A program made the translations under genes and the position numbers. From NCBI RefSeq assembly GCF_000270245.1, contig NC_015635.1, positions 4,030,001-4,094,000 on the forward strand: 64,000 bases of DNA, given 5' to 3'. How positions within the stretch are numbered: position 1 is the first letter of the stretch; each line of letters opens with the position of its first letter. Shown in pieces: positions 1,095 to 25,765 of the stretch. The DNA comes from Microlunatus phosphovorus NM-1 (GTDB taxonomy: Bacteria; Actinomycetota; Actinomycetes; Propionibacteriales; Propionibacteriaceae). Under the pieces are notes generated by a model that did not search any database, had not been told where the DNA came from, and was given only the letters and a program-made list of their open reading frames with translations.

Positions 1095-2903
1095 TCAGGC
1101 AGGTGCGCTCCCGCGCCCAGGTCCGCGCTCAGGAGACGGGACGGCGAGGAGGGCTTCGAGTTCGTCGCGATCACTGCGGAGCTGTGCGGCGTCGGGCCGG
1201 GTCGGCCAGGCGCGGAGGTCGGTGACGATGGGCGGCGCTGAGCGGAGCATCGTTATGCCGGTGCCGAAAGGCAGGGTGCGGATGCGGTCTGGCGGCAGGA
1301 TCGGGACGCGGCGGATCGAGCGCTGGTTGGAGCGGGTGCCGTGGTCGCCGAGGGTCACGCTGTCGGTGTACTCGTCGCGTTCACCGATGAGCGTGGACAG
1401 GTCTTGGAGGTCGCGGCTGTTCGACGCGCCCCCGAGGATGATCTTGACGATGCTGGCGTCCCAGATCGCGCTGGCCTGGTGCTCGCTCCACCGGTCGCGG
1501 GCTTGGGCGAGGGACTGCAAGACCGGCATGGTCGTGATGCCGGTGCCGCCGCCTTCGGCCATGAGCGTCGGAAGGGACGGCAGTGGGGCGAGGTTGCCGA
1601 TCTCGTCGAGTGCGAGCAGCAGTGGCGGGTCGAGCCGGGCTCCGGGTGAGCGGGAGGCGAGTCGTCGGGCGGTTTCGATGAGGTCTTCGACGAACGCTGC
1701 TACCAGCGATGCGGAGGCTCCTGCTCCGGCGCCGGTGGCGAGCAGGTACAGGCTGCCTTGCTCGGTGAGGAAGGTTTCGGGGTCGAAGTGTTCGTTCGGG
1801 CCTGGTGTGACGGCATCGAGTACGCGAGGGTCGGCGAGGGCGGCGAGGGCGAGGGAGACGCCTTGCCAGATGCTGTCGCGGGTCTTGGGGTCGGCGTCGA
1901 TCATCGCGGCCAGTGAGTCGTCCCAGCCCATCGCCGCGTTCGGGTGGGAGTTGAGGATCGCGACGGCCTCGGATGCGGCGCTGGGGTCAAGAGTCCACCT
2001 GAACAGCTCGGCGGGCGGGCGTCCGTCGAGCGCTGCGGCGTGCAGCAGACTCTGGAGTGCGGTGCGGGTCTTGCCTTCCCAGAACCCGCCGGACTCGACC
2101 CCTCCTGCGCTGAGTCCGGTGGCGGCGGCGAGTCCGTTGGCGCGGATCATCGCGGTCAGCGGATCGTCACAGCCGCGAATGGGTGACCAGCGCAGCCCGG
2201 CGGGGATGCCTTCGGCGAGGTGTTGGGGGTCGAACACGGCGACTGGCCCGCCCTTGCGGCGTCGGGCGCGGAGGGTCGCGGTGAGGTTGTCGGGCCTCGT
2301 GCTGGTGGTGACGACTGCGCCGGGTGCGTCGAGGATCGCGTTGATGACGACGTGCAGGCCTTTGCCGGAGCGGGGTGGGCCGATCAGCAGGATCGAGTCC
2401 TCGACCGATGCCCAGATCTTCGTTCCACGGCTGGCACCGAGCAGGTAGCCGACATCCTGCGGTGCTGGCGACGCCAAGGAGGGCCGCAGCGTGGCCGCGC
2501 GGTGAAGCAGTGCCTTCGCGGAGGCTGCGGCCTTGACCTCATGGCTGGTCGCGATCCCCGCGAGTCGGTGCGGGTCGGTCTCTGTCTTCCGCGTGTGGCG
2601 GCGCAGAACGATCCATACCCATACGATCCCGGCGGCGAGCCCACCCAGAAGCGCGGCGCTGACAAGCCAATAGACGACCGGATTGAGCCCGTCGGCACCG
2701 AGCGCGGTCGCCGGATCACCCGGGTCGAACAGCACGCCAAGCCCCGCCGCCGCGCCAGCGTCGGGCTGCGGCGCGCCGGTGAGAAACGCGGCAACACTGC
2801 CAGCGGCGCGGAGGACGAGAGCGATCCCGAACACTCCGATCAGGCCAATCAAGGCGGCGTTGGTGAGTTCGTCGCCCATGCCCCCGGCCTGCCGCTGGTT
2901 CAT
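1095..2903 (-). CDS. TraG/VirD4-type conjugative coupling protein
   Basis: A 602-residue membrane-anchored ATPase that would bring the relaxase-DNA complex to the type IV secretion channel. Two hydrophobic segments lie at about residues 15-40 and 75-100. The cytoplasmic ATPase domain has a Walker A (GPPRSGKG, about residue 178) and a Walker B region (LLLALDEIGNLAPLPSL). A TraM-recognition-like C-terminal region includes WDASIVKIILGGAS. Length and motif order fit the TraG/TraD/VirD4 family. The ATG overlaps the upstream gene as ATGA. A partial second copy of its Walker region survives as a relic at 62.3-62.6 kb. Confidence 0.92.
   Translation of the reverse strand: MNQRQAGGMGDELTNAALIGLIGVFGIALVLRAAGSVAAFLTGAPQPDAGAAAGLGVLFDPGDPATALGADGLNPVVYWLVSAALLGGLAAGIVWVWIVLRRHTRKTETDPHRLAGIATSHEVKAAASAKALLHRAATLRPSLASPAPQDVGYLLGASRGTKIWASVEDSILLIGPPRSGKGLHVVINAILDAPGAVVTTSTRPDNLTATLRARRRKGGPVAVFDPQHLAEGIPAGLRWSPIRGCDDPLTAMIRANGLAAATGLSAGGVESGGFWEGKTRTALQSLLHAAALDGRPPAELFRWTLDPSAASEAVAILNSHPNAAMGWDDSLAAMIDADPKTRDSIWQGVSLALAALADPRVLDAVTPGPNEHFDPETFLTEQGSLYLLATGAGAGASASLVAAFVEDLIETARRLASRSPGARLDPPLLLALDEIGNLAPLPSLPTLMAEGGGTGITTMPVLQSLAQARDRWSEHQASAIWDASIVKIILGGASNSRDLQDLSTLIGERDEYTDSVTLGDHGTRSNQRSIRRVPILPPDRIRTLPFGTGITMLRSAPPIVTDLRAWPTRPDAAQLRSDRDELEALLAVPSPERGPGRGSAPA
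1100..1108 (-). promoter_or_regulatory. GCGCACCTG box upstream of ssb
   Basis: GCGCACCTG is read on the minus strand, overlapping the last codons of the coupling-protein gene and 54 bases before the ssb ATG. It is one of nine copies of the same box before genes in this window. Function unknown. Confidence 0.45.
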
Positions 2904-3448: not shown

Positions 3449-3492
3449 CGGTGGCCTGTCTCTATAGCCGCATCTTCTTGACCGAGGTTCAT
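3445..3492 (-). CDS. Putative 15-residue leader peptide
   Basis: A short frame reads MNLGQEDAAIETGHR and its TGA overlaps the ATG of the next gene (ATGA at 3445-3448). Its own ATG stands exactly six bases after a GCGCACCTG box, the same spacing seen at 24.64, 27.59 and 35.69 kb. This arrangement suggests translational coupling or attenuation. The peptide does not resemble the two 29-residue leaders beyond M-x-L at the start. Confidence 0.4.
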   Translation of the reverse strand: MNLGQEDAAIETGHR

Positions 3493-3498
3493 GTCTCT

Positions 3499-3507
3499 CA
3501 GGTGCGC
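3499..3507 (-). promoter_or_regulatory. GCGCACCTG box before a leader ORF
   Basis: GCGCACCTG is read on the minus strand, followed by six bases (AGAGAC) and then the ATG of the 15-codon leader. Confidence 0.45.
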
Positions 3508-3544
3508 TCCGCCCGCCCGCTGCAACGGACTTACCGCTTGTCGA

Positions 3545-3574
3545 GAATCCTGACGAACCATCATGATTCCTGAC
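3545..3574 (+). repeat. Two near-identical 10-base direct repeats before the integrase
   Basis: GAATCCTGAC (3545-3554) and GATTCCTGAC (3565-3574) are spaced exactly 20 bases apart, about two helical turns. The first lies 78 bases before the integrase GTG. They could be arm or repressor sites for the integrase or the XRE protein of this module. Confidence 0.45.
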
Positions 3575-3622
3575 ACTTTTGCAGTATTCTTGATGCATGG
3601 TCACAATTCGTGAAGCTGCGGA

Positions 3623-4714
3623 GTGATGAAGCTCGCCGCGATGCGGAGCATCGGAACTGCCAGGGGCTGGCGGTCCGAGGAGGACGCTGCCGACTTCGAG
3701 CAGGAGATCATCGACCAGTACGCCCTCGCGATGGCTGCCGCCGGGCTCAGCGACGGCTACATCGCGCAGTCCAGAGCAGTCGTGTTCGAGTTCCGTCACC
3801 ATCTCGACGTCCCGCTGTGGCAAGCAAGGCCCTCCGACGCGGACGCTTTTCTGGCCGGGCTGCGTCGGGCTGGGCTGGCGGTCACGACGCGGGCGAGCAA
3901 GGCTGGCGCGATCGCGCAGTTCTACGACTTTGCCATCGCCCGGTACCAGGGTGACATCAACGCGCTGACCGAGTGGGTGATCGAGCAGCCTATCGACGAG
4001 TACAACCGGCAGTCCGGCTCGTCGCTGGGTAAGGTCCGTGTGCCGCCGTCCGATGCGGAGATCGATCGGCTCTTCGGTGGGTGGGCCGCCTCACTCCAGG
4101 ACGAGCGGCGCTACCTGCCCGCTGCCAGGAACTACTTTGCTGCGTCGCTCTGGCGAAGGGTTGGGGTGCGCATCACGGAGAGCACGAAGCTCGACATCCG
4201 TGACTGGCGGCCCGATCTCGGGGCGCTGGGTAAGCTGCATGTCCGGTTCGGGAAAGGCTCGCGCGGACGAGGGTCGAAGCAGCGTCTGGTGCCTGCGATC
4301 AACGGGGCGGACAAGCTCATCGACTGGTGGCTCGGCGATGTGCGGCATCGGTTCGGCCCTGATTGGGATGACCCGGATGCCCCGATGATCCCGTCCGAGC
4401 GGTTCGATCACGAGCTCGGTCGTTCCTGGCGGGCCAGCGACGATGTGCTCCGGCGAGGCCTGGCCCGAGCGACTGAGCGGTTCCTGCCCGCCTGGGCCGG
4501 AGGACGGATGACACCGCATGTGCTCCGCCATTACTGCGCGTCGTCGCTGTATCTGGCGGGCATGGATTTGAAAGCCCTGCAAGAGCTGCTGGGGCATCAG
4601 TGGCTGGCGACCACGACGCAGTACATCCACGTTCCGGGCGAGCACGTCGAGGACTCGTGGATGCAAGCGAACCAACGGCTGGAAGACCGATTTGAAGGGA
4701 TGACCACGCGATGA
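3623..4714 (+). CDS. Tyrosine recombinase (trio module 1)
   Basis: A 363-residue site-specific recombinase. A SAM-like core-binding domain (about residues 25-120) precedes the catalytic domain, in which the standard residues are visible: R183 (GVRITE), H299-x-x-R302 (HVLRH), H325 (LGH) and nucleophile Y334 (TTQYIH). It is therefore predicted active. The start is a GTG followed by ATG two codons in. It overlaps the XRE gene by ATGA, and that gene in turn overlaps the zinc-ribbon protein, so the three are co-translated. The same order recurs at 30.1-33.2 kb. It probably moves the adjacent arsenic cargo rather than the whole ICE. Confidence 0.92.
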   Translation: MMKLAAMRSIGTARGWRSEEDAADFEQEIIDQYALAMAAAGLSDGYIAQSRAVVFEFRHHLDVPLWQARPSDADAFLAGLRRAGLAVTTRASKAGAIAQFYDFAIARYQGDINALTEWVIEQPIDEYNRQSGSSLGKVRVPPSDAEIDRLFGGWAASLQDERRYLPAARNYFAASLWRRVGVRITESTKLDIRDWRPDLGALGKLHVRFGKGSRGRGSKQRLVPAINGADKLIDWWLGDVRHRFGPDWDDPDAPMIPSERFDHELGRSWRASDDVLRRGLARATERFLPAWAGGRMTPHVLRHYCASSLYLAGMDLKALQELLGHQWLATTTQYIHVPGEHVEDSWMQANQRLEDRFEGMTTR

Positions 4715-5040
4715 AATGGAACCTGCGAGTCCAGGCCGCCGAGCGCGGCATCTGGAAGTCGGCGGAACTGCGGCGGATGCTCGCCGACGCCGGGCTAGAG
4801 ATCAGCCAGGGCAAGATGTCCGGGCTGTGGACGGGCACCCCGACCACGATCCGGCTGGACGATCTCGATGTCATCTGCCATGTCCTCGGTTGCGAGCCGA
4901 CTGATCTTCTCGTGCCCGAGCCCGAGAAAGTCCGAGCCCGCAAGCCCGGCGCCCGTCGGCGGGTAGAAGCGAGTGGGAGCACGAATATGGTCGCGCCCCG
5001 GTTCGGTCCGAAGAACGATCGGCCGGCGCCGCCGCTATGA
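4711..5040 (+). CDS. Small XRE-type helix-turn-helix protein (trio module 1)
   Basis: A 109-residue Cro/C1-like protein. The helix-turn-helix covers residues 18-66 (SAELRRMLADAGLEISQGKM, then IRLDDLDVICHVLGCEPTDLL), followed by a basic, disordered tail. It lies between the tyrosine recombinase and the zinc-ribbon protein with four-base overlaps on both sides. Its counterpart at 31.7-32.1 kb has the same position and the same VICHVLGCEPTDL-like ending of the domain. It may repress the module or act as a DNA-bending or directionality factor, in the place that TnpC occupies in Tn554-type elements. That comparison is by position only. Confidence 0.85.
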   Translation: MKWNLRVQAAERGIWKSAELRRMLADAGLEISQGKMSGLWTGTPTTIRLDDLDVICHVLGCEPTDLLVPEPEKVRARKPGARRRVEASGSTNMVAPRFGPKNDRPAPPL

Positions 5041-6791
5041 GTCCGGCACGCGGCCCGGACGGACCCTTGAGTCCGCCGCTGCCCTGCACTGCGTGCGGGG
5101 TGAAGCCGGCCGCGTGGCTCACACCCCGAATCGACTTCTGCTACGACTGCATCCCCGGCGGCCCGTTCACACCGCCGGCGTGCAGCAAGTGCGGATCGGC
5201 CGAGTATTACAGCCAAGGGCTCTGCGCCCACTGTCACCCCGGCAGCCCCGGCTTCATCGGCTCCTGCCGCGACTGCCTCGCCTGGGGCGTCTACCGGCAA
5301 CGCAACTGGCGGTGCTGGAAGTGCCGCTGGTGGTTCACGCACTACCCGCAGGGCGAGTGCGTCTCCTGCCACCGCGAGGTCACCATCGGTGAGCAGGGCT
5401 ACTGCCGCCTCTGCCTGGAAACCGCCCGCTACCACCAGACGCCTGGTGAACCGCTCGACCTCGACGCGGCCCGCACGTACGGCCAGCAGCTCTTCCTCGC
5501 CTCGATGAACGACTCCCGCCGGCCCGCAGAACTCCGCCTGCCGATGGCGATGAGCATCCGCGAAGCGCTCAAGGTCATCAACACGCCGCCGCCGGTTCCC
5601 GCCAGCTACCAGCCGGTCCTGTTTCATATCGACCCCGACCCCGAACGCCTCCGTCAGCGCTCCAACGAGATCCGGCTGCGCGACATCACCAGCCGTACCG
5701 ACCACTTCCTCTACGCCCGAGCCCGCGAGTACGCCTGGAGCAAGCGACAGACCAACCAGGTCAGGCGCACCCTGAAAGTCCTGCAGCTCGTGTTCCCCGG
5801 CGCGAATCTGCGCTTTCGCGCCTCTGACATCCTCGCGATGCGCAGCTACGACGACGGCAGCAACATCCGCTCCACCATCGAAGTCCTCGAAGACGCCGGG
5901 CTCCTCATCGACGATCGGGTGCCCTCGTTCACCAAGCTCTTCGAACGCAAGACTCACGCCCTTCCTGAGCCGATGCGATCCCAGCTCGAGCTCTGGCGCG
6001 ACATCATGGTCGACGGCTCCAAGACCCCGCCGCGCCGTCAGCCCCGCGACACGATGACCGTCAAAGGCCAGATGTACGGCATCCTCCCCGCGATCACTCG
6101 CTGGGTCGACGACGGGCGCACCAGCCTCGCAGGGATCAGCACCGAAGACATCCTCGCCGCCCTCCCTGACGACCCCTCCCGTCGCCATACGATGCTGCTC
6201 GGCTTCCGCAGTCTGTTCACGATCCTGCGCGGCCGCAAGCAGGTCTTCACCGACCCGACGAATGCGATCCCGCTGCGCGGCCCGCGGCGCAACACACCGC
6301 TGCCAATGGAGCCCACGGCGATCCGCGACGCCCTGGTCAACCCCGACCCCGCAATCGCGTTGGCCGTCTCGCTCGTCGCCTTCCACGCCCTGACCACGCA
6401 GCAGGTCCAGCACATCCAACTCACCGACATCATCGACGGACGTCTGCGAATGCCCGACGTCCGCTTCATCCCGCTCGCGAAACCTGTCCGCGTCCGCCTG
6501 AGCGCGTGGCTCGACCACCGTGCCCAGCGCTGGCCGGAAACGAAGAACCCCTACCTGCTCGTCACCGTCCAGACCGCGCCCCGTCTCTCGCCGCCCGGCC
6601 GGAACTTCCCCTGGAAGAAGGCCGGAGTGACAGCCCAGGCCCTGCGCACCGACCGGATTCTCTATGAAGTCGAGCAGGCCGGCGGCGACGTCAGGCGCAT
6701 CTGCGACCTCTTCGGCATCGGCATCGAGACCGCGCTGCGCTACTCCCACACCGCCACGGGACCGCAGAACATCACGGCCGACAGTGCGTAG
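5037..6791 (+). CDS. Zinc-ribbon protein with a degenerate tyrosine recombinase domain (module 1)
   Basis: A 584-residue protein. Residues 17-126 contain eight CxxC pairs (CTAC, CYDC, CSKC, CAHC, CRDC, CWKC, CVSC, CRLC), enough for four zinc ribbons. Residues 220-310 resemble a core-binding domain. The C-terminus follows the tyrosine recombinase pattern without its key residues: the box that should hold the first arginine reads AFHALTTQQVQHIQL, the HxxR box reads LRTDRI, and only a final tyrosine (about residue 569, ALRYSHT) remains. It is thus probably a non-cleaving partner of the intact recombinase, perhaps reading DNA through its zinc ribbons. The ATG overlaps the XRE stop. A relative of similar design is at 30.1-31.7 kb. 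Confidence 0.75.
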   Translation: MSPARGPDGPLSPPLPCTACGVKPAAWLTPRIDFCYDCIPGGPFTPPACSKCGSAEYYSQGLCAHCHPGSPGFIGSCRDCLAWGVYRQRNWRCWKCRWWFTHYPQGECVSCHREVTIGEQGYCRLCLETARYHQTPGEPLDLDAARTYGQQLFLASMNDSRRPAELRLPMAMSIREALKVINTPPPVPASYQPVLFHIDPDPERLRQRSNEIRLRDITSRTDHFLYARAREYAWSKRQTNQVRRTLKVLQLVFPGANLRFRASDILAMRSYDDGSNIRSTIEVLEDAGLLIDDRVPSFTKLFERKTHALPEPMRSQLELWRDIMVDGSKTPPRRQPRDTMTVKGQMYGILPAITRWVDDGRTSLAGISTEDILAALPDDPSRRHTMLLGFRSLFTILRGRKQVFTDPTNAIPLRGPRRNTPLPMEPTAIRDALVNPDPAIALAVSLVAFHALTTQQVQHIQLTDIIDGRLRMPDVRFIPLAKPVRVRLSAWLDHRAQRWPETKNPYLLVTVQTAPRLSPPGRNFPWKKAGVTAQALRTDRILYEVEQAGGDVRRICDLFGIGIETALRYSHTATGPQNITADSA

Positions 6792-6846
6792 CCGCCCTCG
6801 GAAGATGAACCTTCGGCAAACACCACCCAGATGCGCCTCGCCGACT

Positions 6847-6878
6847 TGCCGCGTGCTTCGAGAAGCGTCAATATAGAT
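6847..6878 (+). promoter_or_regulatory. Promoter and ArsR-like box of the trxB operon
   Basis: TATAGA at 6872-6877 with TTGCCG at 6847-6852 looks like a promoter whose start would fall at or next to the ATG at 6881, so the transcript is probably leaderless. TTCGA-N6-TCAAT (6857-6872) overlaps the -10 and matches, with one mismatch, the ATYGA-N6-TCRAT boxes before the two arsR genes. Confidence 0.5.
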
Positions 6879-6880
6879 AC

Positions 6881-7855
6881 ATGTCGAATCAAGAGGTCGA
6901 GTTGGTCATCGTCGGGTCCGGTCCCGCCGGGTACACCGCGGCGGTCTACGCTGCTCGTGCGGGGCTTGCCCCGGTCGTGATCGCCGGCTCGTTGACCGCG
7001 GGCGGGGCGTTGATGACGACGACCGAGGTGGAGAACTTCCCCGGCTTCGTCGATGGTGTGCAGGGTCCGGAGTTGATGGAGTCGATGCGGGCGCAGGCTG
7101 AACGGTTCGGCGCTCAGATCGTCTACGACGACGCGACCCGCCTCGACCTCGACGGCGACGTGAAGATCATCGAGACCGGTGCCGGGGCCACGTATCGGGC
7201 GCGGGCGGTGGTCCTGGCGATGGGCTCCGCGTACCGCAAGCTCGACCTCCCCGAGGAGGACCGCTTGTCCGGGCACGGAGTGTCCTGGTGCGCGACGTGC
7301 GACGGGTTCTTCTTCCGCGACCAGGAGATCGCCGTGGTCGGCGGCGGAGACTCCGCGATGGAGGAGGCCCTGTTTCTCACCCGGTTCGCGTCGAAAGTGA
7401 CCGTCGTGCACCGCCGGGACGAGTTCCGGGCGTCGAAGATCATGGCGCAGCGCGTGCTGGACGACCCGAAGATCGAGGTCGCCTGGAACAGCGAGGTCGC
7501 CGCGATCCTCGGCGACGAGCAGGTCACCGGGCTCACGCTGCGCGATAGCGTCACTGGGACCGAGCGGAGACTCGACGCGACGGGGGTGTTCGTCGCGGTC
7601 GGGCACGACCCGCGTTCAGATCTCGTGACCGGCCAGGTCGACACCGACGCGGACGGGTACGTGCGGGTCGCGCACCCGTCGACGCGGACGAACCTGGCCG
7701 GGGTGTTCGCGGCCGGGGATCTCGTCGATCACACGTACCGGCAGGCGATCACCGCCGCGGGCACCGGCTGCGCGGCCGCGCAGGACGCCCAGCACTACCT
7801 GTCGAACCTTGCTCCCGCCACCGTTTCCGCACCTGTTCTGGAGGTTTCCGCATGA
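6881..7855 (+). CDS. trxB: Thioredoxin reductase
   Basis: A 324-residue NADPH- and FAD-dependent reductase that regenerates reduced thioredoxin. It has the N-terminal FAD motif [11 protein letters not shown] (residues 11-21), the redox pair C137-A-T-C140, a second Rossmann motif [12 protein letters not shown] and the closing [16 protein letters not shown] site. Normal family length. It begins a five-gene operon (trxB, trxA, acr3, arsR-arsC fusion, arsC). Placing the reductase and thioredoxin here supplies electrons directly to the thioredoxin-dependent arsenate reductases downstream. The trxA ATG overlaps its TGA. Confidence 0.95.
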
Positions 7856-8178
7856 GCACCGTCACCCCCGTCACCGACGCCACGTTCCGGGCCGAGGTGC
7901 TCGACTCCGAGCTGCCCGTCGTGGTCGACATCTGGGCGGCCTGGTGCGGGCCATGCAAGGCGATCGCCCCGATCCTGGACCAGCTCGCCGGTGAGTACGC
8001 GGGCCGGGTGAAGATCGTGAAGGTCGATGCCGATCAGAACCCCGAGACCGTGACCGCGGCCGGCGTGACCTCGATCCCGACCCTCGGGTTCTATCGGAAC
8101 GGGGAACGGGTGGACGTGTTGATCGGCGCGCACCCGAAGCCCGTCTACGCGACGAAGATCGAGGAGCTGCTCGCATGA
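7852..8178 (+). CDS. trxA: Thioredoxin
   Basis: A 108-residue thioredoxin with the active site W31-C-G-P-C35 and the conserved cis-proline region TSIPTLGFY. It is a cytoplasmic disulfide reductant, here probably for ArsC. It overlaps trxB upstream and acr3 downstream (both ATGA), indicating tight translational coupling in the arsenic operon. Confidence 0.95.
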
Positions 8179-9275
8179 CCGACACCGTGACCCGCACCGC
8201 ACCGAAACGGCTCTCCACACTCGACAAGTGGCTGCCGCTGTGGATCGGCCTCGCCATGGTCGCCGGTCTCCTCCTCGGCCGGTTCGTGCCTGTGCTCTCC
8301 GACGTGCTGTCCGCGATGGAGGTCGGTGGGATCTCGGTCCCGATCGGGCTGGGCCTGCTGGTGATGATGTATCCGGTGCTCGCGAAGGTCCGCTACGACA
8401 AGGTCGCCGCCGTCACCGGAGACAAGAAGCTCCTGGTCTCTTCGCTCGTGCTGAACTGGCTCGTGGGGCCGGCGGTGATGTTCGCCCTGGCCTGGATCTT
8501 CCTGCCGGATCTGCCCGAGTACCGCACCGGGCTGATCATCGTCGGGCTCGCCCGCTGCATCGCGATGGTCGTGATCTGGAACGATCTGGCCTGCGGTGAC
8601 CGGGAAGCGACCGCGGTGCTGGTGGCGATCAACTCGGTGTTCCAGGTCGTCGCGTTCTCCCTGCTGGGCTGGTTCTATCTCACCGTCCTGCCGGGCTGGC
8701 TGGGGCTGGACACGCAAGGGCTGGAGATCTCGGTCTGGCAGATCGCGCTGAATGTGATCGTCTTCCTCGGCGTCCCCCTCGCCGCGGGGTTCGCCTCGCG
8801 GTGGATCGGCGAGAAGCGGAAGGGGCGCGACTGGTACGAGGAGACGTTCCTTCCGAGGGTCGGGCCGTGGGCGCTGTACGGCCTGCTGTTCACGATCGTG
8901 CTGCTGTTCGCCCTCCAGGGCGAACAGGTCACCTCCCGGCCGATGGACGTCGCCCGGATCGCACTTCCCTTGCTGGTGTACTTCGGGCTGATGTGGTTCG
9001 CGGGGCTGCTGCTCGGCAAGGGCATCGGCCTGAGCTACGCGCGATCGACGACGCTCGCGTTCACCGCGGCCGGGAACAACTTCGAACTGGCCATCGCGGT
9101 CGCCATCGGCACCTTCGGCGCGGCCTCCGGGCAGGCCTTGGCGGGGGTCGTCGGCCCGCTCATCGAGGTGCCCGTGTTGGTGGGGCTGGTCTACGTCTCG
9201 CTCTGGGCGGCGAAAGCCTGGTTCCGCACCGACCCCTACGCCACCGAATCCACGATCGAATCGAGGACGTCATGA
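8175..9275 (+). CDS. acr3: ACR3-family arsenite efflux permease
   Basis: A 366-residue inner-membrane carrier with about ten hydrophobic helices, which exports As(III) as the last step of arsenate detoxification. The family cysteine is present at residue 128 (GLARCIAMVVIWNDLACGD), as is the conserved AGNNFELAIAVAIGTFG segment near the C-terminus. Length is normal for ACR3 and unlike the 12-helix ArsB. It overlaps trxA and the arsR-arsC fusion by ATGA. Confidence 0.95.
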   Translation: MTDTVTRTAPKRLSTLDKWLPLWIGLAMVAGLLLGRFVPVLSDVLSAMEVGGISVPIGLGLLVMMYPVLAKVRYDKVAAVTGDKKLLVSSLVLNWLVGPAVMFALAWIFLPDLPEYRTGLIIVGLARCIAMVVIWNDLACGDREATAVLVAINSVFQVVAFSLLGWFYLTVLPGWLGLDTQGLEISVWQIALNVIVFLGVPLAAGFASRWIGEKRKGRDWYEETFLPRVGPWALYGLLFTIVLLFALQGEQVTSRPMDVARIALPLLVYFGLMWFAGLLLGKGIGLSYARSTTLAFTAAGNNFELAIAVAIGTFGAASGQALAGVVGPLIEVPVLVGLVYVSLWAAKAWFRTDPYATESTIESRTS

Positions 9276-10273
9276 CCGACACCGCTGTCCTTCCCGACGC
9301 CGAGGCGTGCGCGCCCTCCGCGATGCACGCGATCGGCGCCGACGCAGCTGCGACTGTGGCCGGGGCGCTCAAGGCGCTGGCGGATCCGCTGCGGCTGCGG
9401 ATGCTGTCCGCGATCGCGACCGACCCGCGCGGCGAGTCCTGCGTGTGCGATCTCGCGGAGCTCGCCGACGTGTCCCAGCCGACCGTCTCCCACCATCTGA
9501 AGGTGTTGAAGGAGACCGGGATGCTGCGGTCCGAGCGGCGCAGTACGTGGGTCTGGTACCGGATCGCGCCGGGCAAGCAGCGCGCCGTCGCGGCCCTCCT
9601 CGACGCGTTCGCACCAGCGGCAGTCGCCGACGAGCCGGAGGACGCTCAGGCGCGAGTTGAAGCGTTGCGGCAGATGGACGCCCGCGTGACCCGGCTCGCC
9701 GAGGAACTGGCCAACGAGCTGACCGGGCTGCACCGTGATGTCGTGATCGCGATCGTGCGCGAGTCCTACGCGGGCCTGGTGCGGTCGGCGAAGCTGACGC
9801 AGCACATGATCCCGCTGACCGAGCGCTTCGCCCGCCAGCGCCTCGCCGACCTCACCCGGGATCGGTCTTCGGGGGTGCCGCAGGTGCTGTTCGTGTGCGT
9901 GCAGAACGCGGGCCGTTCCCAGCTCGCCGCCGCCATCGTCAACCAGCTCGCCGACGGCCGAGTGATCGCCCGTTCCGCAGGCTCGACCCCGGCGTCGGAC
10001 CTGCACCCGCACGTGCGCTCCCTGCTCGTCGAGATCGAAGGCGAGCAGGAGGCTCGGGATGCGTTCCCGAAGCCGCTGACCGACGACGCCGTCCGCGCCG
10101 CGGACGTTGTGGTGACGATGGGCTGCGGCGACGTGTGCCCGATCATCCCGGGTGTCCGCTACGAGGATTGGGCCGTCGGCGACCCCGCCCTCGCCTCCCC
10201 GCAAGGGGTCGACGCGATCCGACACGACATCGAGTCCCGCGTCCGCGCCCTCCTCGCGACCCTCACCGACTGA
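9272..10273 (+). CDS. ArsR-arsenate reductase fusion protein
   Basis: A 333-residue fusion. Residues 25-110 form an ArsR winged helix with the metal-site motif C57-V-C59-DL followed by SQPTVSHHLK. Residues 125-195 are a helical linker (a three-helix dimerisation-like segment). Residues 203-333 are a low-molecular-weight-phosphatase-type arsenate reductase with the P-loop C209-V-Q-N-A-G-R215-S and a MGCGDVCP pair that would serve as resolving cysteines. One chain thus appears to combine sensing and enzyme activity. Whether it still binds DNA is unknown. The start at 9272 overlaps acr3 (ATGA). An open frame extends upstream but lies inside acr3. Confidence 0.9.
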   Translation: MTDTAVLPDAEACAPSAMHAIGADAAATVAGALKALADPLRLRMLSAIATDPRGESCVCDLAELADVSQPTVSHHLKVLKETGMLRSERRSTWVWYRIAPGKQRAVAALLDAFAPAAVADEPEDAQARVEALRQMDARVTRLAEELANELTGLHRDVVIAIVRESYAGLVRSAKLTQHMIPLTERFARQRLADLTRDRSSGVPQVLFVCVQNAGRSQLAAAIVNQLADGRVIARSAGSTPASDLHPHVRSLLVEIEGEQEARDAFPKPLTDDAVRAADVVVTMGCGDVCPIIPGVRYEDWAVGDPALASPQGVDAIRHDIESRVRALLATLTD

Positions 10274-10288
10274 AAGAAGCCAAAGTTC

Positions 10289-10693
10289 ATGACCGTTCAG
10301 CAGCCCTCTGTCCTGTTCGTCTGCGTCCACAACGCCGGCCGCTCCCAGATGGCCGCCGGCTACCTCCGCCACCTCGCCGCAGGCCGCATCGAGGTCCGCT
10401 CGGCCGGGTCCATGCCCGCCGAGCAGATCAACCCCGTGGCCGTCGAAGCCATGCGCGAGGAAGGGATTGACATCACCGCCGAGCAGCCGAAGGTGCTCAC
10501 CACCGAGGCGGTGCAGGCCTCCGACGTGGTGATCACGATGGGCTGCGGCGACGCCTGCCCGTTCTTCCCGGGCAAGCGGTACGAGGACTGGAAGCTCGAC
10601 GACCCCGCCGGACAGGGCATCGAGGCGGTGCGCCCGATCCGCGACGAGATCAAGGGGCGCATCGAAGCGCTCTTGGCAGAGCTGCTCGTCTGA
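10289..10693 (+). CDS. arsC: Arsenate reductase (thioredoxin-coupled)
   Basis: A 134-residue phosphatase-fold arsenate reductase. The nucleophile loop is C12-V-H-N-A-G-R18-SQM, and the downstream cysteines in MGCGDACPFFPG are the expected disulfide relay. The product reduces As(V) to As(III) for export by the ACR3 permease. It is the last gene of the trxB operon, 15 bases after the fusion gene. A close copy (TAEQPK, DDPAGQGIEAVRPIRDEI) is at 27.6-28.0 kb. Confidence 0.95.
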   Translation: MTVQQPSVLFVCVHNAGRSQMAAGYLRHLAAGRIEVRSAGSMPAEQINPVAVEAMREEGIDITAEQPKVLTTEAVQASDVVITMGCGDACPFFPGKRYEDWKLDDPAGQGIEAVRPIRDEIKGRIEALLAELLV

Positions 10694-10710
10694 GGGAGTG
10701 TGAGCGCCGC

Positions 10711-10739
10711 AGGGGCAAGCAACATCGGCGCTTGCCCCT
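10711..10739 (+). terminator. Hairpin terminator after the trxB-arsC operon
   Basis: AGGGGCAAGC (10711-10720) pairs perfectly with GCTTGCCCCT (10730-10739) over a nine-base loop. It lies 18 bases after arsC and before the convergent thioredoxin-like gene. There is no long T run. Confidence 0.6.
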
Positions 10740-10828
10740 CCCATGCTCTTGAGGGAGCTCGATCCATGCGGGGAACATCGTTGTGCCGCGGGTGTGGCCC
10801 GCTAATTGCGTCCCCAGTGGTTGTCGCT

Positions 10829-11137
10829 CTATCGAGAAGCGCCTCGCAGCGCTGCTTCGATCTGCTCCGGCGTGGGCGCTCCGGCGAATCCGCTTTCCGT
10901 CGAGTAGACGCGGCACGCGAGCGAGCGGACCGGTGCGGTCGGGAACAGGTCGACGCCGTCGACTAGGAGCGTGGGTGATCCTCCGAACGGAGAATTCGTC
11001 GCTTCGGCCTCGGTCCGGATGGCTACCAGTTCGACGGCCACGTCCACAAATCCGATTGCGTCCAGCGCAGCACGCGCGTTGGCTTCGGCGATGTCCGTGT
11101 TCGGGCAGTCGAGGATGTGCAACAGTTCGACCTTCAT
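10829..11137 (-). CDS. Thioredoxin-fold metal-resistance accessory protein
   Basis: A 102-residue protein of thioredoxin-like fold: MKVELLHILDCPNTDIAEAN at the start, a single cysteine in the usual active-site position (CPNT), and the cis-proline segment GGSPTLLVDGVDLF. A further cysteine lies in SLACRVY. Similar small proteins accompany mercury and cadmium genes in Actinobacteria, but their function is not established. Its ATG overlaps the stop of the P-type ATPase (ATGA), so it belongs to the cmtR-ATPase operon. Confidence 0.75.
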   Translation of the reverse strand: MKVELLHILDCPNTDIAEANARAALDAIGFVDVAVELVAIRTEAEATNSPFGGSPTLLVDGVDLFPTAPVRSLACRVYSTESGFAGAPTPEQIEAALRGASR

Positions 11138-13041
11138 GCGATCCGCTCTTTTCGGGTCCGAGCCGCGCGGAGCCCGTTGAGGATGACGACGACCTCGGCG
11201 ATCTCGTGCACCAGCACCACCGCGGCCAGCCCCAGCACGCCGAACAGGGCCAGCGGCAGCAGGGCGGCGATGATCAGCAGCGACAGGATGATGTTCTGGT
11301 TGATGATGCGCCTGCCGCGACGGGCGTGGTCGAACGCCCGCGGGAGGAGCCGCAGGTCGTGGCCGGTGAAGGCGACGTCGGCGGACTCGATCGCAGCGTC
11401 GGAGCCGGTCGCGCCCATCGCGATGCCGATGTCCGCGGCGGCCAAGGCGGGGGCGTCGTTGATGCCATCGCCGATCATCGCGACCGAGCCGTGCCCGCCC
11501 AGTTCGCTGATCGCGGTGGCCTTGTCCTCCGGGCGCAGCTCGGCGCGCACGTCCTCGATCCCGGCCTGCGCGGCCAGCGCCCGGGCGGTGCGGGCGTTGT
11601 CACCGGTGAGCATCGTCACCCCGACGCCCTGGGCGGCGAGGGTGCGGACCACCTCTGGGACCTCGGGGCGCAGCTCGTCGCGGACACCGACCGCGGCGAC
11701 CGGGGCGTCGTCGCGGTGCACGATCACGACGGTCATGCCCTGCTCCTCCAAGCCCGCGACCTGGTCCTTGAGCGTCCCCGCGTCCAGCCAGCGGGGGCTA
11801 CCGACTGTGACCCTGGCCCCGTCGATGCTGCCTTCGATGCCGTGCCCGGCCTGCTCGGTCACGTCCAAGGCGGCGGGAGCTCCGGGGGCGGCGGCGGTGA
11901 TCGCGGCGGCCAGCGGGTGGGTGCTGTGCTGCTCCAGCGACGCAGCCCACGCCAACGCCTGCGCCTCGGTCACGCCCTCGGTGGTGAGCACGGCGGTGAC
12001 GGCGGGCTCGTTGCGGGTGAGGGTGCCGGTCTTGTCGACGGCGACGTGGCGGATCACGCCGAACCGCTCGAAGACCTCGCCGGACTTGATGATCACGCCG
12101 AATCTGCTCGCCGAGCCGATCGCGGCGACGACGGTCAGCGGGACCGAGATCGCCAGCGCGCACGGCGACGCGGCGACGAGCACCACGAGGGCGCGGGTGA
12201 TCCACAGCTCCGGGTCGCCCAGCAGCGAGCCGATGATCGCGACGAGAGCGGCGAGGATCAGCACGCCAGGCACGAGCGGCCGGGCGATGCGGTCGGCCAG
12301 GCGGGCACGGTCGCCCTTCTCCGCCTGCGCCTGCTCCACCAGCTCCACGATCGTGGTCAGCGAATTGTCGGTACCCGCCGCGGTCGCCTCGACCTCCAGG
12401 GCACCGGCGGTGTTGATCGCCCCGGCCGACACCGCGTCGCCGGGCTCGACCTCCACCGGGATCGACTCCCCGGTGATCGCCGAGGTGTCCAGGCTCGACC
12501 GGCCCGTGCGGACGATCCCGTCGGTCGCGATCCGCTCACCCGGACGCACGAGCATCAGCTGACCAACGGCCAGATCCTTCGCGGCGACCTCCACGGACGC
12601 GCCATCCCGCCGGATGGTCGCGGTCTCCGGGACCAGCTTGAGCAGCGCCCGCAGCCCGCCGCGGGCGCGATCCATGGCCTTGTCCTCCAGCGCTTCGGCG
12701 ATGGAGTACAGGAACGCCAACGCCGCGGCCTCCTCGACGTAGCCGAGGATCACCGCGCCGACCGCGCTGATCGTCATCAGCAGCCCGATGCCCAGCTTGC
12801 CCGTGAACAGCTTGCGGACCGCGCCGGGCGTGAACGTCGACGCACCCAGCAGCAGGCCGATCCAGAACGCCACCAGCGCCGGGATCTCCGCACCCGTCCA
12901 TTCCAGGACCAGGCCCGTGCCGAAGGCGACGCCGGAGAACACCGGAACCATGATCCCGCGGTCACGCCACCACGGCCGCTCCTCCTCGGCCTCCTCGCCG
13001 ACCCGGGTCTCCGGCTCGTCGCAGCCGCACGCCGCGCTCAC
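11134..13041 (-). CDS. P1B-type metal-exporting ATPase (cadmium/lead/zinc type)
   Basis: A 635-residue ATPase with the phosphorylation site DKTGT, TGES, MIGDGINDAPAL and an HP motif (QHSTHPLA). The transmembrane metal motif is SPC (VAASPCALAISVPL) and the last helices carry LVHEIAEVVVILNGLRA, a pattern close to P1B-4 pumps. There is no N-terminal HMA domain, only a short CGCDEP segment. GTG at 13041 is chosen because it overlaps the cmtR stop (GTGA); a 653-residue frame would run into cmtR. The CmtR partner points to Cd(II)/Pb(II) as inducer, but transport specificity cannot be read from sequence alone. Confidence 0.9.
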   Translation of the reverse strand: MSAACGCDEPETRVGEEAEEERPWWRDRGIMVPVFSGVAFGTGLVLEWTGAEIPALVAFWIGLLLGASTFTPGAVRKLFTGKLGIGLLMTISAVGAVILGYVEEAAALAFLYSIAEALEDKAMDRARGGLRALLKLVPETATIRRDGASVEVAAKDLAVGQLMLVRPGERIATDGIVRTGRSSLDTSAITGESIPVEVEPGDAVSAGAINTAGALEVEATAAGTDNSLTTIVELVEQAQAEKGDRARLADRIARPLVPGVLILAALVAIIGSLLGDPELWITRALVVLVAASPCALAISVPLTVVAAIGSASRFGVIIKSGEVFERFGVIRHVAVDKTGTLTRNEPAVTAVLTTEGVTEAQALAWAASLEQHSTHPLAAAITAAAPGAPAALDVTEQAGHGIEGSIDGARVTVGSPRWLDAGTLKDQVAGLEEQGMTVVIVHRDDAPVAAVGVRDELRPEVPEVVRTLAAQGVGVTMLTGDNARTARALAAQAGIEDVRAELRPEDKATAISELGGHGSVAMIGDGINDAPALAAADIGIAMGATGSDAAIESADVAFTGHDLRLLPRAFDHARRGRRIINQNIILSLLIIAALLPLALFGVLGLAAVVLVHEIAEVVVILNGLRAARTRKERIA

Positions 13042-13397
13042 GCGCCCGCTCCCGTCCCGCAGCAGCCCGGCACCGTGCACTCGGCATCCACGCACGGCGC
13101 GTGCTCGTCCACGGCCAGCGTCACGTCCACCAGCGCCGTGAGCGCCGCCGCGAGGTGCGGGTCGGCGATCTCGTAGCGCGTCTGCCGCCCCTCGGGCTCG
13201 GCGACCACGATCCCGCAGTCGCGCAGACAGGTCAGATGGTTCGACACGTTCGAGCGCGTCAGCTCCAGCTCGCGCGAGAGCACGGCCGGGTAGCTCGGGC
13301 CGTCCAGCAGGGTCATCAGGATCCGGGAACGCGTCGGATCCGCCATGGCCCGGCCCAGCCGGTTCATGACGTCAAGACGCGAAGCAATAGTCAGCAT
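13038..13397 (-). CDS. cmtR: CmtR-type cadmium/lead-sensing ArsR-family repressor
   Basis: A 119-residue winged-helix repressor. It aligns throughout with mycobacterial CmtR (GRAMADPTRSRILMTLLDG, LTRSNVSNHLTCLRDCG). The three ligands known for CmtR are present at the same residue numbers, C57 and C61 in helix 4 and C102 in the tail. It should release DNA on binding Cd(II) or Pb(II) and so induce the ATPase it overlaps. A 35-base palindrome covers its start codon, suggesting autoregulation of a leaderless transcript. Extra cysteines in the tail (ECTVPGCC) could add metal affinity. Confidence 0.92.
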   Translation of the reverse strand: MLTIASRLDVMNRLGRAMADPTRSRILMTLLDGPSYPAVLSRELELTRSNVSNHLTCLRDCGIVVAEPEGRQTRYEIADPHLAAALTALVDVTLAVDEHAPCVDAECTVPGCCGTGAGA

Positions 13398-13424
13398 ACA
13401 CTGAACTATACAGTGAACGCTGAC
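13390..13424 (-). promoter_or_regulatory. Long interrupted palindrome, probable CmtR operator
   Basis: The arms are symmetric on both levels: GTCAGC (13390-13395) with GCTGAC (13419-13424), and CACTG (13399-13403) with CAGTG (13411-13415), with three-base gaps on each side and a seven-base centre. It overlaps the cmtR ATG at 13397-13395. Operator function is inferred from position and symmetry. Confidence 0.65.
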
Positions 13425-13445
13425 CTATTGTCGGCTCCGATAACC

Positions 13446-14651
13446 TCAACTTCGACTATGAACGCCACGCGGCGGGAGGAGTGGCTGCTCCGCGCAGGCC
13501 CTCGTCCACGCGCTGGCGATCATCAGGGCCGTCCCGACTGCAGCCAGGGCGGTCAGGACGGCGAATGCCCTCGCGCAGCTCCCGGTCACCTCGGCGAGGA
13601 CGGCCCCGGCGAACGGGGCGAGGGCAGCGGCCAGCAGGACCGGGAGGCCGAGGACGCCGGAGAGGTGGCCGTAGGCGCGCTCTCCCCAGCGGTCGGTGAT
13701 CGCGGTCGCCTGCAGCAGCGTGGCGATCCCGCGGCCGACTCCGGCGAGCATCGACGCCGCAATCAGCAGGCCCACCGGGCCCGGCACCACGGCCAGGACC
13801 AGCGTGCTCGCAGTCACCAGGATGAACACGGCGGCGGTGCGCGCGGTCAGCGAGGCCCGGTGCGCCAGGCCGGTGTAGACGAGGCGTCCGGCGACCTGGC
13901 CGACGCCCCCGAGGCCGAGCACCCAGGCTGCGGCCCGGGCGTCGAGGCCGCGCTCGAGCATGAGCGGGACCAGGGCCAGCAGGCCCGTGTACATGGCCAG
14001 CGACGCCGCGGTCAAACCGCCCGTGAGCAGCCAGAACCGCGCGCTGCGCAGGACCGCGACGGCATGGGCGCTGTCGGCGGCGGGCGCGTCGCGATGCCCG
14101 CGCGCGGGCCAGGGGTGTCGCAGCAGGAGCCAGTGGGCCGGCACTGTGACGACGGCGAGGGTGGCTGCCGCCCACAGGTAGGTCGCCCGCCAGCCCAGCT
14201 GCTCGCCGGCGGTCGCCGTCAGCGGCGCGAAGACCGTGCTGGCCAGGCCCGCGACGAGCGTGAGCGTGGCCAGTGCCCCGAGGCGGCGTGCGTCGAACCA
14301 GCCGGTGATCGCGGCGAACGCCGGCGGGTAGAGCACCCCGGCCATCGCGGCCCCGGCGAGCACCCAGCCGGCGACGAAGACCGGCAGGCTCCATGCCGTG
14401 CCGATCACCACGAGAGCCAGGACTCCAAGGGCCGACCCGACCGTCATGACCAGCCGCGGTCCGCGCCGGTCGATGACGCGGCCGATCGGCACCCCGACCA
14501 GCGCCGAGACCACCAGTGCCGCCGAGAACGCCGAGGTGACGGCCATCGAGGACCAGCCGGTGTCGGCGCTGATCCGTGGCGCGAGCACCGGGAAGGCGTA
14601 GTAGAGCAGCCCCCAGGAGACGATCTCGGTTACGCACAGCGCCGCCAGCAC
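13446..14651 (-). CDS. MFS transporter in the arsenic island
   Basis: A 401-residue major facilitator with about 12 helices and the loop-2/3 motif GVPIGRVIDRRGPR. The cytoplasmic middle loop is at about residues 185-205. MFS carriers of this kind accompany flavoprotein genes in actinobacterial ars clusters and may export an organoarsenical or oxidised product; the substrate is unknown. GTG at 14651 is the only standard start giving a whole first helix. The frame remains open upstream to a CTG that overlaps the flavoprotein TGA, so a longer N-terminus (SEPGPRPSLGA) is possible. Confidence 0.82.
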   Translation of the reverse strand: MLAALCVTEIVSWGLLYYAFPVLAPRISADTGWSSMAVTSAFSAALVVSALVGVPIGRVIDRRGPRLVMTVGSALGVLALVVIGTAWSLPVFVAGWVLAGAAMAGVLYPPAFAAITGWFDARRLGALATLTLVAGLASTVFAPLTATAGEQLGWRATYLWAAATLAVVTVPAHWLLLRHPWPARGHRDAPAADSAHAVAVLRSARFWLLTGGLTAASLAMYTGLLALVPLMLERGLDARAAAWVLGLGGVGQVAGRLVYTGLAHRASLTARTAAVFILVTASTLVLAVVPGPVGLLIAASMLAGVGRGIATLLQATAITDRWGERAYGHLSGVLGLPVLLAAALAPFAGAVLAEVTGSCARAFAVLTALAAVGTALMIASAWTRACAEQPLLPPRGVHSRS

Positions 14652-14683
14652 CGCTCCCAGCGATGGGCGGGGTCCGGGCTCAC

Positions 14684-15748
14684 TCAGGCAACGGCGGCAC
14701 CCCGCGGCAGCCTGGTCAGGGCGTCGACGACGTGCTGGGCGTCGCGGTGGACCCCGCGCAGCGTGTTCGAGGAGAACGACCGCTGGAACTCCAGGCCGAG
14801 GAAGCCCAGCCCCGGCAGCGCGGTCGAGACACCGCGGTCGTGCCTCGGCCTGCCGGCCCCGTCGAGGACGCCGAGCGAGGTCAGGTAGGTCAGGTGCGGC
14901 CGGTAGCCGGTCGCGAAGATCACGGCGTCGACCTGCTCCCGGGAGACGTCAGGCCACACGACCCCGTCCGGGGACAACGCGGTGAACATGGGCCGCTGGT
15001 CGGGCCGGCCCGCCTCCAGCGCCCGCTTGTACGTGTCGGTCCCGATCACCGGGGTGCCGGTGACGAGCCGTTCGAGGACCGATGGCGGGAGCAGGTCGGC
15101 GCGCGTGAGGCGCAGCCACCAGTGCAGGTCGCGTCCGGCGATCATCTGCGGCGCGAACCGGACCCGGTCCCGCACCGCCAGCGACGTCTCCGCGTGCTCG
15201 GCGAGCTCGTGGGCCACCTGCACGGCGGAGTTGCCCGCGCCGACGACCACGACCCGCTGCCCGGCGAACTCCTCCGGCGACCGGTAGTCGGCCACATGCA
15301 GAACACGACCCTCGAATGCCTCCCGGCCGGGGATCGACGGCACGTGGGGATTGCCGAACGAACCGGAAGCGGCGATGAGCGCGTCGCCGACCAGGCTGCT
15401 CCCGTCAACCAACTCCACCGTGAACGCCGGCCCGTCGGCGGTGACGTCGACGACGCGGGCATTGGTCCGGACCTCGACGCCGAGCTGGTCGGCGTATCCG
15501 CGGATGTACTCGACGACCTCGTCGCGCCCTGGGTAGCCGTCCGGGTCACCGGGGAACCGATACCCGGGGAAGGAACTGAACCGGCGTGGGGAGAACAGGC
15601 GCAGGCTGTCGTAGTAGCACGGCCAGGACCCGACCGGCTCGTCACCGGCCTCCAGGACGACCGGTTCCCAGCCCCGGTCGCGTCCGGTGCGGGCTGCGGC
15701 GAGGCCGGACTGCCCGCCGCCGACGATCAGCAGGCGGCCCCGGCTCAT
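14684..15748 (-). CDS. FAD/NAD(P)-dependent oxidoreductase (ArsO-like)
   Basis: A 354-residue flavoprotein with an FAD motif at the N-terminus (IVGGGQSGLAAA), an NAD(P) motif VVVGAGNSAVQVAHELA at about residue 170 and the ATGYRPHL stretch of flavin monooxygenase-like enzymes. Its ATG overlaps the stop of the next flavoprotein (ATGA). Two tandem flavoproteins with an MFS carrier beside arsR and arsN suggest chemical modification of arsenicals, but the reaction is not known. The longer open frame from 15853 runs into the neighbour and is not used. Confidence 0.85.
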   Translation of the reverse strand: MSRGRLLIVGGGQSGLAAARTGRDRGWEPVVLEAGDEPVGSWPCYYDSLRLFSPRRFSSFPGYRFPGDPDGYPGRDEVVEYIRGYADQLGVEVRTNARVVDVTADGPAFTVELVDGSSLVGDALIAASGSFGNPHVPSIPGREAFEGRVLHVADYRSPEEFAGQRVVVVGAGNSAVQVAHELAEHAETSLAVRDRVRFAPQMIAGRDLHWWLRLTRADLLPPSVLERLVTGTPVIGTDTYKRALEAGRPDQRPMFTALSPDGVVWPDVSREQVDAVIFATGYRPHLTYLTSLGVLDGAGRPRHDRGVSTALPGLGFLGLEFQRSFSSNTLRGVHRDAQHVVDALTRLPRGAAVA

Positions 15749-17064: not shown

Positions 17065-17079
17065 ACCCAACCTCCATGC

Positions 17080-17132
17080 ATTGACGTTCTTCAATATGAG
17101 CAAGCCTGCCTCACGTATCGACAGATGTCAAT
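17080..17132. promoter_or_regulatory. Paired ArsR boxes between the flavoprotein operon and arsR
   Basis: ATTGA-N6-TCAAT (17080-17095) and ATCGA-N6-TCAAT (17117-17132) lie 37 bases apart in the divergent promoter region. The second has the same central bases (CAGATG) as a box before the arsR at 29.66 kb, and the match extends to ATGCGT on its right. Confidence 0.65.
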
Positions 17133-17152
17133 GCGTAGGGCAGAATGGAGCC

Positions 17153-17500
17153 ATGAACACCCTTCCCGCGACCATCGTGAGCACCCCCGAAGCCTCGACC
17201 TGTTGCATCCCGGGCCAACCGCTCGACGATGCGACCGCACAGCAGCTCGCCCGGGTGTTCAAAGCGCTCGGCGACCCCACCCGGGTCAAGCTCATGGCGA
17301 TGATCGTCGGCAGCAGCGAGGGCGAGATGTGCGTGTGCGACCTCACCGAACCCGTCGGACTGTCGCAGCCGACCGTGTCACACCACATGAAGCTCCTTGT
17401 CGAAGCCGGACTCGTGACCCGCGAGCAACGCGGTAAGTGGGCCTACTACCAGCCCACAACCGACACGCTCGCCACTGCCGCGCGGGCGTTCCTCTCCTGA
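17153..17500 (+). CDS. arsR: Arsenite-responsive repressor
   Basis: A 115-residue winged-helix repressor. An N-terminal C17-C18 pair together with CVCDL ahead of SQPTVSHHMK resembles the three-cysteine site of Corynebacterium ArsR, which differs from the site of enterobacterial ArsR. It probably controls its own gene and the divergent flavoprotein-MFS operon through the boxes at 17080-17132. Its product is very similar to the ArsR at 29.66 kb (FKALGDPTRV, LTEPVGLSQPTVSHHMK, REQRGKWAYY), so the two may cross-regulate. Confidence 0.92.
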   Translation: MNTLPATIVSTPEASTCCIPGQPLDDATAQQLARVFKALGDPTRVKLMAMIVGSSEGEMCVCDLTEPVGLSQPTVSHHMKLLVEAGLVTREQRGKWAYYQPTTDTLATAARAFLS

Positions 17501-17523
17501 CGCCAGATTCCCGGTTCCGGCCG

Positions 17524-24643: not shown

Positions 24644-24649
24644 GCCTGA

Positions 24650-24658
24650 CAGGTGCGC
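24650..24658 (-). promoter_or_regulatory. GCGCACCTG box before leader peptide A
   Basis: GCGCACCTG is read on the minus strand, six bases before the leader ATG. TAGCCT about 20 bases further upstream could be a -10 element. Confidence 0.45.
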
Positions 24659-25744: not shown

Positions 25745-25765
25745 CGGATCAGTCTATCGCGAAAC

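Follow-up and report, generated by a model that had tools for sequence, protein, structure and literature searches.

The window analysed here, a 64,000-nucleotide stretch of the Microlunatus phosphovorus NM-1 genome (positions 4030001-4094000 of the 5,683,123-bp single-contig chromosome), covers a chromosomal conjugative backbone with genes for a coupling protein, a VirB4-like ATPase, an SCO6880-like protein, an M23 peptidase and a ParB-like protein. Two copies of a three-gene module are found in it, each made up of a gene for a tyrosine recombinase (YR), here called Int, a gene for a small helix-turn-helix (HTH) protein of the XRE type and a gene for a larger protein, P3 (Table 1). The open reading frames (ORFs) of copy 1 agree with the initial annotation, in which an intact tyrosine recombinase is followed by a small XRE protein and a protein of 584 residues, and the same order, reported at 30.1-33.2 kb, is present at 33216-30072 on the minus strand. 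The four-base joints that had been claimed are real in copy 1, where both are ATGA overlaps, but in copy 2 only int2 and xre2 overlap (a single ATGA, 4 bp), xre2 and P3-2 being separated by about 8 bp.

Int1 and Int2, which are 25% identical, are both PF00589 proteins (Int1 at E 3e-15) and both carry the R-K-HxxR-H/W-Y residues of a YR within that fold, the set being R183, K211, H299, R302, H325 and Y334 in Int1. These residues are well kept in a collection of 63 sequences composed of Int1 and 62 ORFs of more than 300 aa from relatives: R183 in 63, K211, H299, R302 and Y334 in 61 each, and H325 in 60. The product of xre1 is assigned to HTH_26 (PF13443, E 4e-15), and that of xre2 likewise.

As far as sequence comparison indicates, each module is at one end of a cargo-bearing insertion which has defined ends and moves independently of the backbone; in the window, the insertion site is fixed and coincides with the 3' end of a conserved conjugation gene of the type IV secretion system (T4SS). 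The two insertions are separated by T4SS backbone (18.13-24.56 kb) and each has one module and its own empty site; therefore they do not form one composite arsenic island bracketed by two modules, a structure which can be ruled out, and the two copies, once placed at the edges of one such island, are the ends of two separate elements. In two related backbones (L143 and L144, about 90-92% identical), element 1 is absent and window positions 3457 and 18134 map to the same base, while L114/L115 represents a natural empty site of element 1, with at most one base shared and none lost. Judged from these empty sites, element 1 has not duplicated its target, or by 1 bp at most. The region of element 2 (24.56-33.40 kb) is missing from L143, its site is also empty in L040/L039, and a related element stands at that site in L144, continued in L147. 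The empty sites that the initial annotation had proposed to look for do exist in related backbones.

The second line of evidence is the comparison of P3 with the coupling protein TraM at 21 chosen loci (the window and 20 of the 46 loci with TraM on the left), which gives 210 pairs. The Spearman correlation between the two identities is 0.19 (nominal p 0.006, the pairs not being independent). In 25 pairs P3 is at least 90% identical and TraM less than 80%, the extreme contrast being 99% for P3 and 71% for TraM; conversely, TraM is at least 85% identical and P3 less than 60% in 8 pairs, and the values are 100% and 47% for L042-L086 and 97% and 48% for the window and L106. The identities of P3 and of the backbone are nearly uncoupled, which argues that the module moves and lends support to the earlier suggestion of a distinct family of cargo-moving elements. 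A precise empty site and independent movement, which together characterize an integrative element, are both found here. We consider it probable that each of the two copies serves its own site-specific integrative element as recombination module, a confidence which rests on the L143/L144 empty sites and on the uncoupling of P3 from TraM. As an observation on the backbone itself, TraM is 100% identical between L042 and L086 and between L049 and L086, and the contigs L042, L049 and L086 are filed as Cellulosimicrobium, Microlunatus and a Nanopelagicales metagenome-assembled genome; it seems that the backbone crosses families or that a bin is mixed.

The third protein of the module, P3, carries at its N-terminus, as read from the sequence, eight CxxC pairs in P3-1 and ten in P3-2, and the number in P3-1 suffices for the four zinc ribbons previously assigned to it. 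Neither P3-1 nor P3-2 fell into a Pfam or NCBIfam family at E<=1 (at E<=10, P3-1 had nothing but stray matches), and no family was found for P3 in PHROGs at E<=0.01. The proposed recombinase fold was borne out by structure comparison: an AlphaFold model of P3-1, obtained from 45 relatives (mean pLDDT 72, pTM 0.37), gave 18 Foldseek matches to PDB chains at E<=0.001, every one of them a YR, including XerA, lambda Int, IntI4, XerD, archaeal Xer, Cre and XerH, and the P3 family profile found XerA by sequence at E 0.0018. On the basis of this model, the predicted fold of the P3 C-terminus is that of a YR, with a core-binding and a catalytic domain. The P3-1 and P3-2 families are homologous over 275 columns in a profile comparison (probability 96.7, E 4e-10). 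In the 45 copy-1-type proteins, placed in register with Int, the first arginine (R-I) is not conserved, the histidine position of the HxxR box is occupied by Gln in 30, Arg in 13, Asn in 1 and His in 1, and the His of the LGH motif is not conserved either; in the copy-2 type, Trp stands at the Tyr position in 5 of 5. P3 lacks the complete catalytic residues of an active YR, in a register set by motif and not by coordinates. A copy-2-type P3 is also encoded by a viral contig (L112).

One scan of genome contigs yielded 71 relatives of copy 1, and gene order could be tested at the 66 of them in which a P3 ORF is preceded by 1.4 kb or more of sequence. The three-gene order, whose recurrence in other genomes was to be checked, is widespread, int and xre being present in order at 62 of these 66 loci; at the other four, an internal deletion has removed int (L044), P3 stands by itself (L071), the frames are broken (L109) or the locus is a fragment (L110). 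Outside the testable set, L057 and L104 have a shorter upstream region with both genes, a contig end truncates L088 and L101, and L111 has no P3 ORF. In L044 (9687-9786), the deletion fuses the left-end region to xre, so that int is gone while P3 and the cargo stay.

T4SS genes lie on the expected side and strand at 57 of the 71 loci and in the reverse arrangement at none: TraM is on the left, minus strand, at 46, the ATPase or the SCO6880-like gene is on the right, minus strand, at 43, and both are present at 32. This count excludes M23 matches, one of which (L092) is on the plus strand. Three copy-2-type surroundings were inspected (L147, L177 and L178, the last two from 29 other class-sample matches), and in L147 and L177 related elements occupy the same M23 site as element 2. 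A P3-2-type match was found in 21 of 197 genomes of the class, own genome included, and 92 plasmid records have a match to P3-1 and 241 have one to P3-2 at E<=1e-5. With so many relatives from other actinobacteria in operons of this type, the elements give the impression of cargo that hitch-hikes on conjugative DNA. That the insertion sites are conjugation genes was absent from the initial annotation.

In the mechanism that we propose for these integrative elements, Int would be the sole cutting subunit, and P3, a YR-fold zinc-ribbon partner, would bind the attachment (att) DNA and occupy the non-cutting positions of the synapse, thereby conferring site choice or direction. The XRE protein would control the operon, serve as an accessory factor, or both, in the place held elsewhere by TnpC, GinD or Srap. 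The element would leave as a circle and insert at an att site of a different conjugative element, and its transfer would be achieved by riding on that conjugative element.

Several observations weigh against this reading. No T4SS gene is present at 14 of the 71 loci; six of these are on contigs shorter than 8.4 kb, and the eight others (L046, L048, L055, L104 and L108-L111) are flanked on one side by 5 kb or more. Among the copy-2 relatives, no T4SS gene was found within 20 kb of L178, and two more distant copy-1-type modules (L012, L179) adjoin Tad-pilus genes, the one in L179 (4371-7631, plasmid pNOCA01) lying between genes of a Tad-pilus operon. A P3-1-type match (E<=1e-20) occurs in 4 of 396 sampled genomes of the phylum, own genome included, and some of these matches are partial. 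As regards P3 itself, the PDB matches have low TM-scores (0.31-0.44 by target length) and high root-mean-square deviations, as expected if the domain orientation is poorly modelled, and the residue register comes from motif order, the P3-Int profile match being insignificant (E 0.38). Furthermore, the description of P3 as lacking the first arginine and the HxxR box stands for R-I and the His but not for the arginine equivalent (R537), which, with the tyrosine equivalent (Y569), is kept in 45 of 45 copy-1-type proteins; P3 of this type may therefore not be wholly dead.

The ends of the elements were compared within the clade of element 1. Element 1 begins with TGTCTCTA on the left and terminates with CTTGCGGGGAAT on the right. 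Among 11 left ends (the window and ten relatives), nine start with TGTCTCTA and two with TATCTCTA (L040, L042), and their flanks are of nine kinds, one common to L040, L042 and L049 and the other eight distinct. Over 16 aligned relatives, the alignment starts at window positions 3456-3459 in 10 (in L048, at its contig end), 84-127 bp further in (3541-3584) in L052, L054, L055 and L056, and the homology extends into the left flank in L043 and L069. The 11 right ends read GAACTTGCGGG with single changes, followed by GAAT, GAAC, TTTC or TTTT; an opposed CCCGCATCTTC-like arm is located about 30 bp inward of them, and the same arm about 10 bp inside the left end. In element 1, CCCGCANNTTC-like arms are found about 10 bp inside the left end and on both sides of the right-end site. 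At its extreme ends, neither a classical target duplication nor a terminal inverted repeat was seen, and the ends do not reveal the crossover point. Both elements replace the last codons of a T4SS gene, the ATPase gaining IPRKFRIPEVDSA-stop and the M23 peptidase V-stop; in L051, L052 and L069, the ATPase retains its own stop just before the junction. The iterons between the left end and int1, read from the sequence, are candidate binding sites for the recombinase or the XRE protein. In L053, the left flank (about 8405-8420) ends with GAACTTCTAGACGTTT, which is the right end of a different element in L106 (about 14620-14635), as if two elements were stacked side by side at one att site.

Table 1. 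Features of the two elements and of the adjoining backbone in the window (positions in the 64,000-nucleotide stretch).
Feature	Position	Strand	Description
TraM/T4CP-type coupling protein gene	1095-2903	-	Backbone left of element 1
Element 1	3457-18133	+	14,677 bp; module at left end, metal-resistance cargo; right end inside 3' end of T4SS ATPase gene
Iterons	3544-3613	+	Four, about 20 bp apart, AATCCTGAC-like
int1 (copy 1)	3623-4714	+	YR, 363 aa, catalytic residues complete
xre1 (copy 1)	4711-5040	+	Cro/C1-type HTH (HTH_26) protein, 109 aa; 4-bp overlaps on both sides
P3-1 (copy 1)	5037-6791	+	584 aa; eight N-terminal CxxC pairs; predicted YR-fold C-terminus without R-I and His residues
Element 1 cargo	6881-18120		Thioredoxin reductase/thioredoxin, arsenite transporter, ArsR, arsenate reductases (names from annotated relatives and reading)
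Element 1 cargo, further genes	6881-18120		P-type ATPase, MFS transporter, flavoproteins, acetyltransferase (names from annotated relatives and reading)
Element 1 right-end site	18083-18133	+	Inverted arms CCCGCATATTC ... GAACTTGCGGG, then GAAT; gives the ATPase new C-terminal codons and stop
T4SS (VirB4-like) ATPase gene	18092-19660	-	Target of element 1
Element 2	24564-33398 (approximate; left end to within a few bp)	-	About 8.8 kb; module at right end, arsenic cargo; at M23-peptidase 3' end/DUF6112 start
Element 2 cargo	25160-30040		CGNR-type protein, MFS transporter, inorganic pyrophosphatase-like, arsenate reductase, aquaporin-like, ArsM, ArsR (names from sequence reading, that of arsM excepted)
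P3-2 (copy 2)	30072-31739	-	Ten CxxC pairs; predicted dead YR-fold C-terminus
xre2 (copy 2)	31748-32092	-	HTH_26 protein
int2 (copy 2)	32089-33216	-	YR
Second palindromic site	33227-33259		Just upstream of int2; candidate operator
Palindromic site	33347-33380		By the int2-side end of element 2; putative recombination site
M23-peptidase T4SS gene	33390-35369	-	Target of element 2

In the cargo of element 1, a single ORF (about 9270-10273) apparently fuses an ArsR-type regulator to an arsenate reductase-like domain and is followed by a second arsenate reductase gene. Elsewhere in the window, a fragment at 62315-62621 resembles part of TraM from plasmid NZ_CP072877 (about 90% identity), and another short fragment was noted as well; these are perhaps the remnant of another conjugative backbone.

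The module could belong to a known multi-YR genomic island with a dead YR-fold subunit, either the genomic island with three integrases (GInt) or the strand-biased circularizing integrative element (SE), an alternative that we regard as unlikely. GInts are described with a ginABCD operon comprising two complete YRs, a YR-like subunit without the first arginine (GinC) and a small fourth protein (GinD), a cargo of 2.5-70 kb, flanking imperfect repeats of 10-17 nt, and hosts among the Proteobacteria, Verrucomicrobia, Bacteroidetes and Firmicutes (PMC5385486). SEs are described with the genes intA-tfp-intB-srap, all four needed, and few targeted sites; Tfp is a YR-fold protein without RHRY, and Srap has a predicted weak TetR-like N-terminus and a C-terminal coiled coil (PMC10214605, PMC9345347). 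Gene disruptions in GInts and SEs are reported to show that the recombination genes, the dead YR-fold one included, are necessary (PMC5385486, PMC10214605). The elements of the window resemble GInts by site-specific insertion over a gene end (which in GInts can leave the product unaltered), by an operon at one end, a variable cargo and a short other end, and by a YR-like subunit without the first arginine next to a small protein, and they share with SEs the catalysis-lacking YR-fold partner (Tfp there), the small auxiliary protein (Srap there) and the small number of target sites. However, compared by their descriptions, both systems have two complete YRs and four genes, whereas the module has one complete YR and three genes, in an order that is neither ginABCD nor intA-tfp-intB-srap, and it differs from GInts by its mid-operon HTH_26 protein and its CxxC ribbons.

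Could P3 instead be catalytic itself, as a second recombinase whose active site is shifted, the pair working like TnpA/TnpB of Tn554? This seems improbable to us. Tn554 is not known to make a target duplication, a feature in common with element 1. The invariance of R537 and Y569 in 45 of 45 proteins speaks for such an activity, but R-I and the His are not conserved in the copy-1 type and Trp occupies the Tyr position in all five of the copy-2 type. The actinobacterial Tn554-like elements are described with two complete YRs, one of about 350-410 aa and a long one of 600-830 aa, and with TnpC or nothing as third protein (Van Houdt et al. 2012, PMC3414803). They resemble the module by the short YR with a long partner and have hosts and plasmids in common with it, but both of their YRs have the catalytic motifs, unlike the incomplete P3. 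In plasmid pNOCA01 there is a Tn554-like pair of 411 and about 800 aa, in which the long YR retains HxxR, LGH and Tyr and no XRE gene separates the two; a module like those of the window lies at a different place in this plasmid. The match of int1 to the short YR of the pair is confined to the C-terminal motif. Membership of the Tn554-like group was rejected on this comparison of the incomplete P3 with a pair of two complete YRs.

Quite unlikely also is a resident system of the backbone, e.g. for dimer resolution or as its own integrase, inherited with the T4SS operon while cargo piled up beside it. The constant place and orientation of the module in the operon would fit, as would several cargo-free copies which directly adjoin the ATPase. 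Such a gene does not agree with the empty sites in backbones about 90-92% identical, with a P3 only 47% identical between backbones whose TraM is 100% identical, or with element ends that are shared between different flanks. The target ATPase occurs in 43 of 147 genomes of the order, and among 30 ATPase loci fetched the right-end motif of the clade was found in the window only; no module gene lay within the fetched 1.5 kb in any of the 30, own locus included, a test that would miss right ends of another kind and modules lying beyond long cargo. Six ATPase loci were followed up to 20 kb: in three (L187, L188, L189) TraM is directly behind the ATPase and there is no module, one (L186) has the module, and two (L184, L185) show neither arrangement. 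With the empty-site, uncoupling and ATPase-locus results taken together, the resident gene is disfavoured. In L185 (1-5807), about 3.7 kb of other, module-free DNA separates the ATPase from TraM, and the sequence after the stop resembles an element right end. That P3 is chiefly a regulator or silencer of target-operon transcription acting through its N-terminal ribbons, as its zinc ribbons, its XRE neighbour and the annotation of some P3-2 matches as XRE-family regulators might suggest, is very unlikely in view of a YR-fold match spanning the core-binding and catalytic parts and of its tight coupling to int (62 of 66 loci).

Returning to the integrative-element reading, our opinion is evenly divided on its extension to a widespread actinobacterial class of hitch-hikers, which would use the 3' ends of conjugation and secretion operon genes as att sites, would be moved by a complex in which one active YR is joined by an XRE protein and by a YR-fold protein that bears zinc ribbons and is no longer catalytic, and whose families would divide the genes of one T4SS operon among them and stack in it. 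If true, this would account for the entry of arsenic and other metal-resistance cassettes into conjugative elements of actinobacteria at fixed positions, and the use of conjugation genes as att sites would be a case of piggy-backing in which the target guarantees the transport.

Compared with the remaining known systems, the module also stands apart. The RIT elements (recombinases in trio, ritABC) have three YRs, each with a possible catalytic motif (PMC3414803). Their three genes overlap as well, but all encode YRs, whereas the middle gene here encodes an HTH_26 protein; as the initial annotation had stated, Tn554-type and RIT sets differ from this module. The Gamma-mobile-trio (GmtX/Y/Z) is a trio with YR subunits and cargo. 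Against its NCBIfam profiles no match was significant: int2 reached GmtY at E 0.02 and GmtZ at E 0.25, in the C-terminal motif only, and P3 gave nothing at E<=1. No group like the module appears in the YR classification of PMC8138268, in the part of that text available, and a literature search restricted to open papers found no description of it, so that one may be in print elsewhere. The dead YR partner, presented at first as new, is less so, GinC and Tfp having preceded it, each with a small auxiliary protein; dead YR-fold partners being known in GInts and SEs, the principle is not new. In the open literature, no description was found of a system that combines a single active YR with an XRE protein and a dead partner bearing zinc ribbons and that targets conjugation operons. 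Two of its traits are surprising: only one subunit would cut, alongside a dead zinc-ribbon protein, and the attachment sites are conjugation genes. What is the role of a catalytically dead recombinase partner? The question is shared with GInts and SEs and, if our reading is true, these elements offer a minimal three-protein, one-cutter system in which to ask it.

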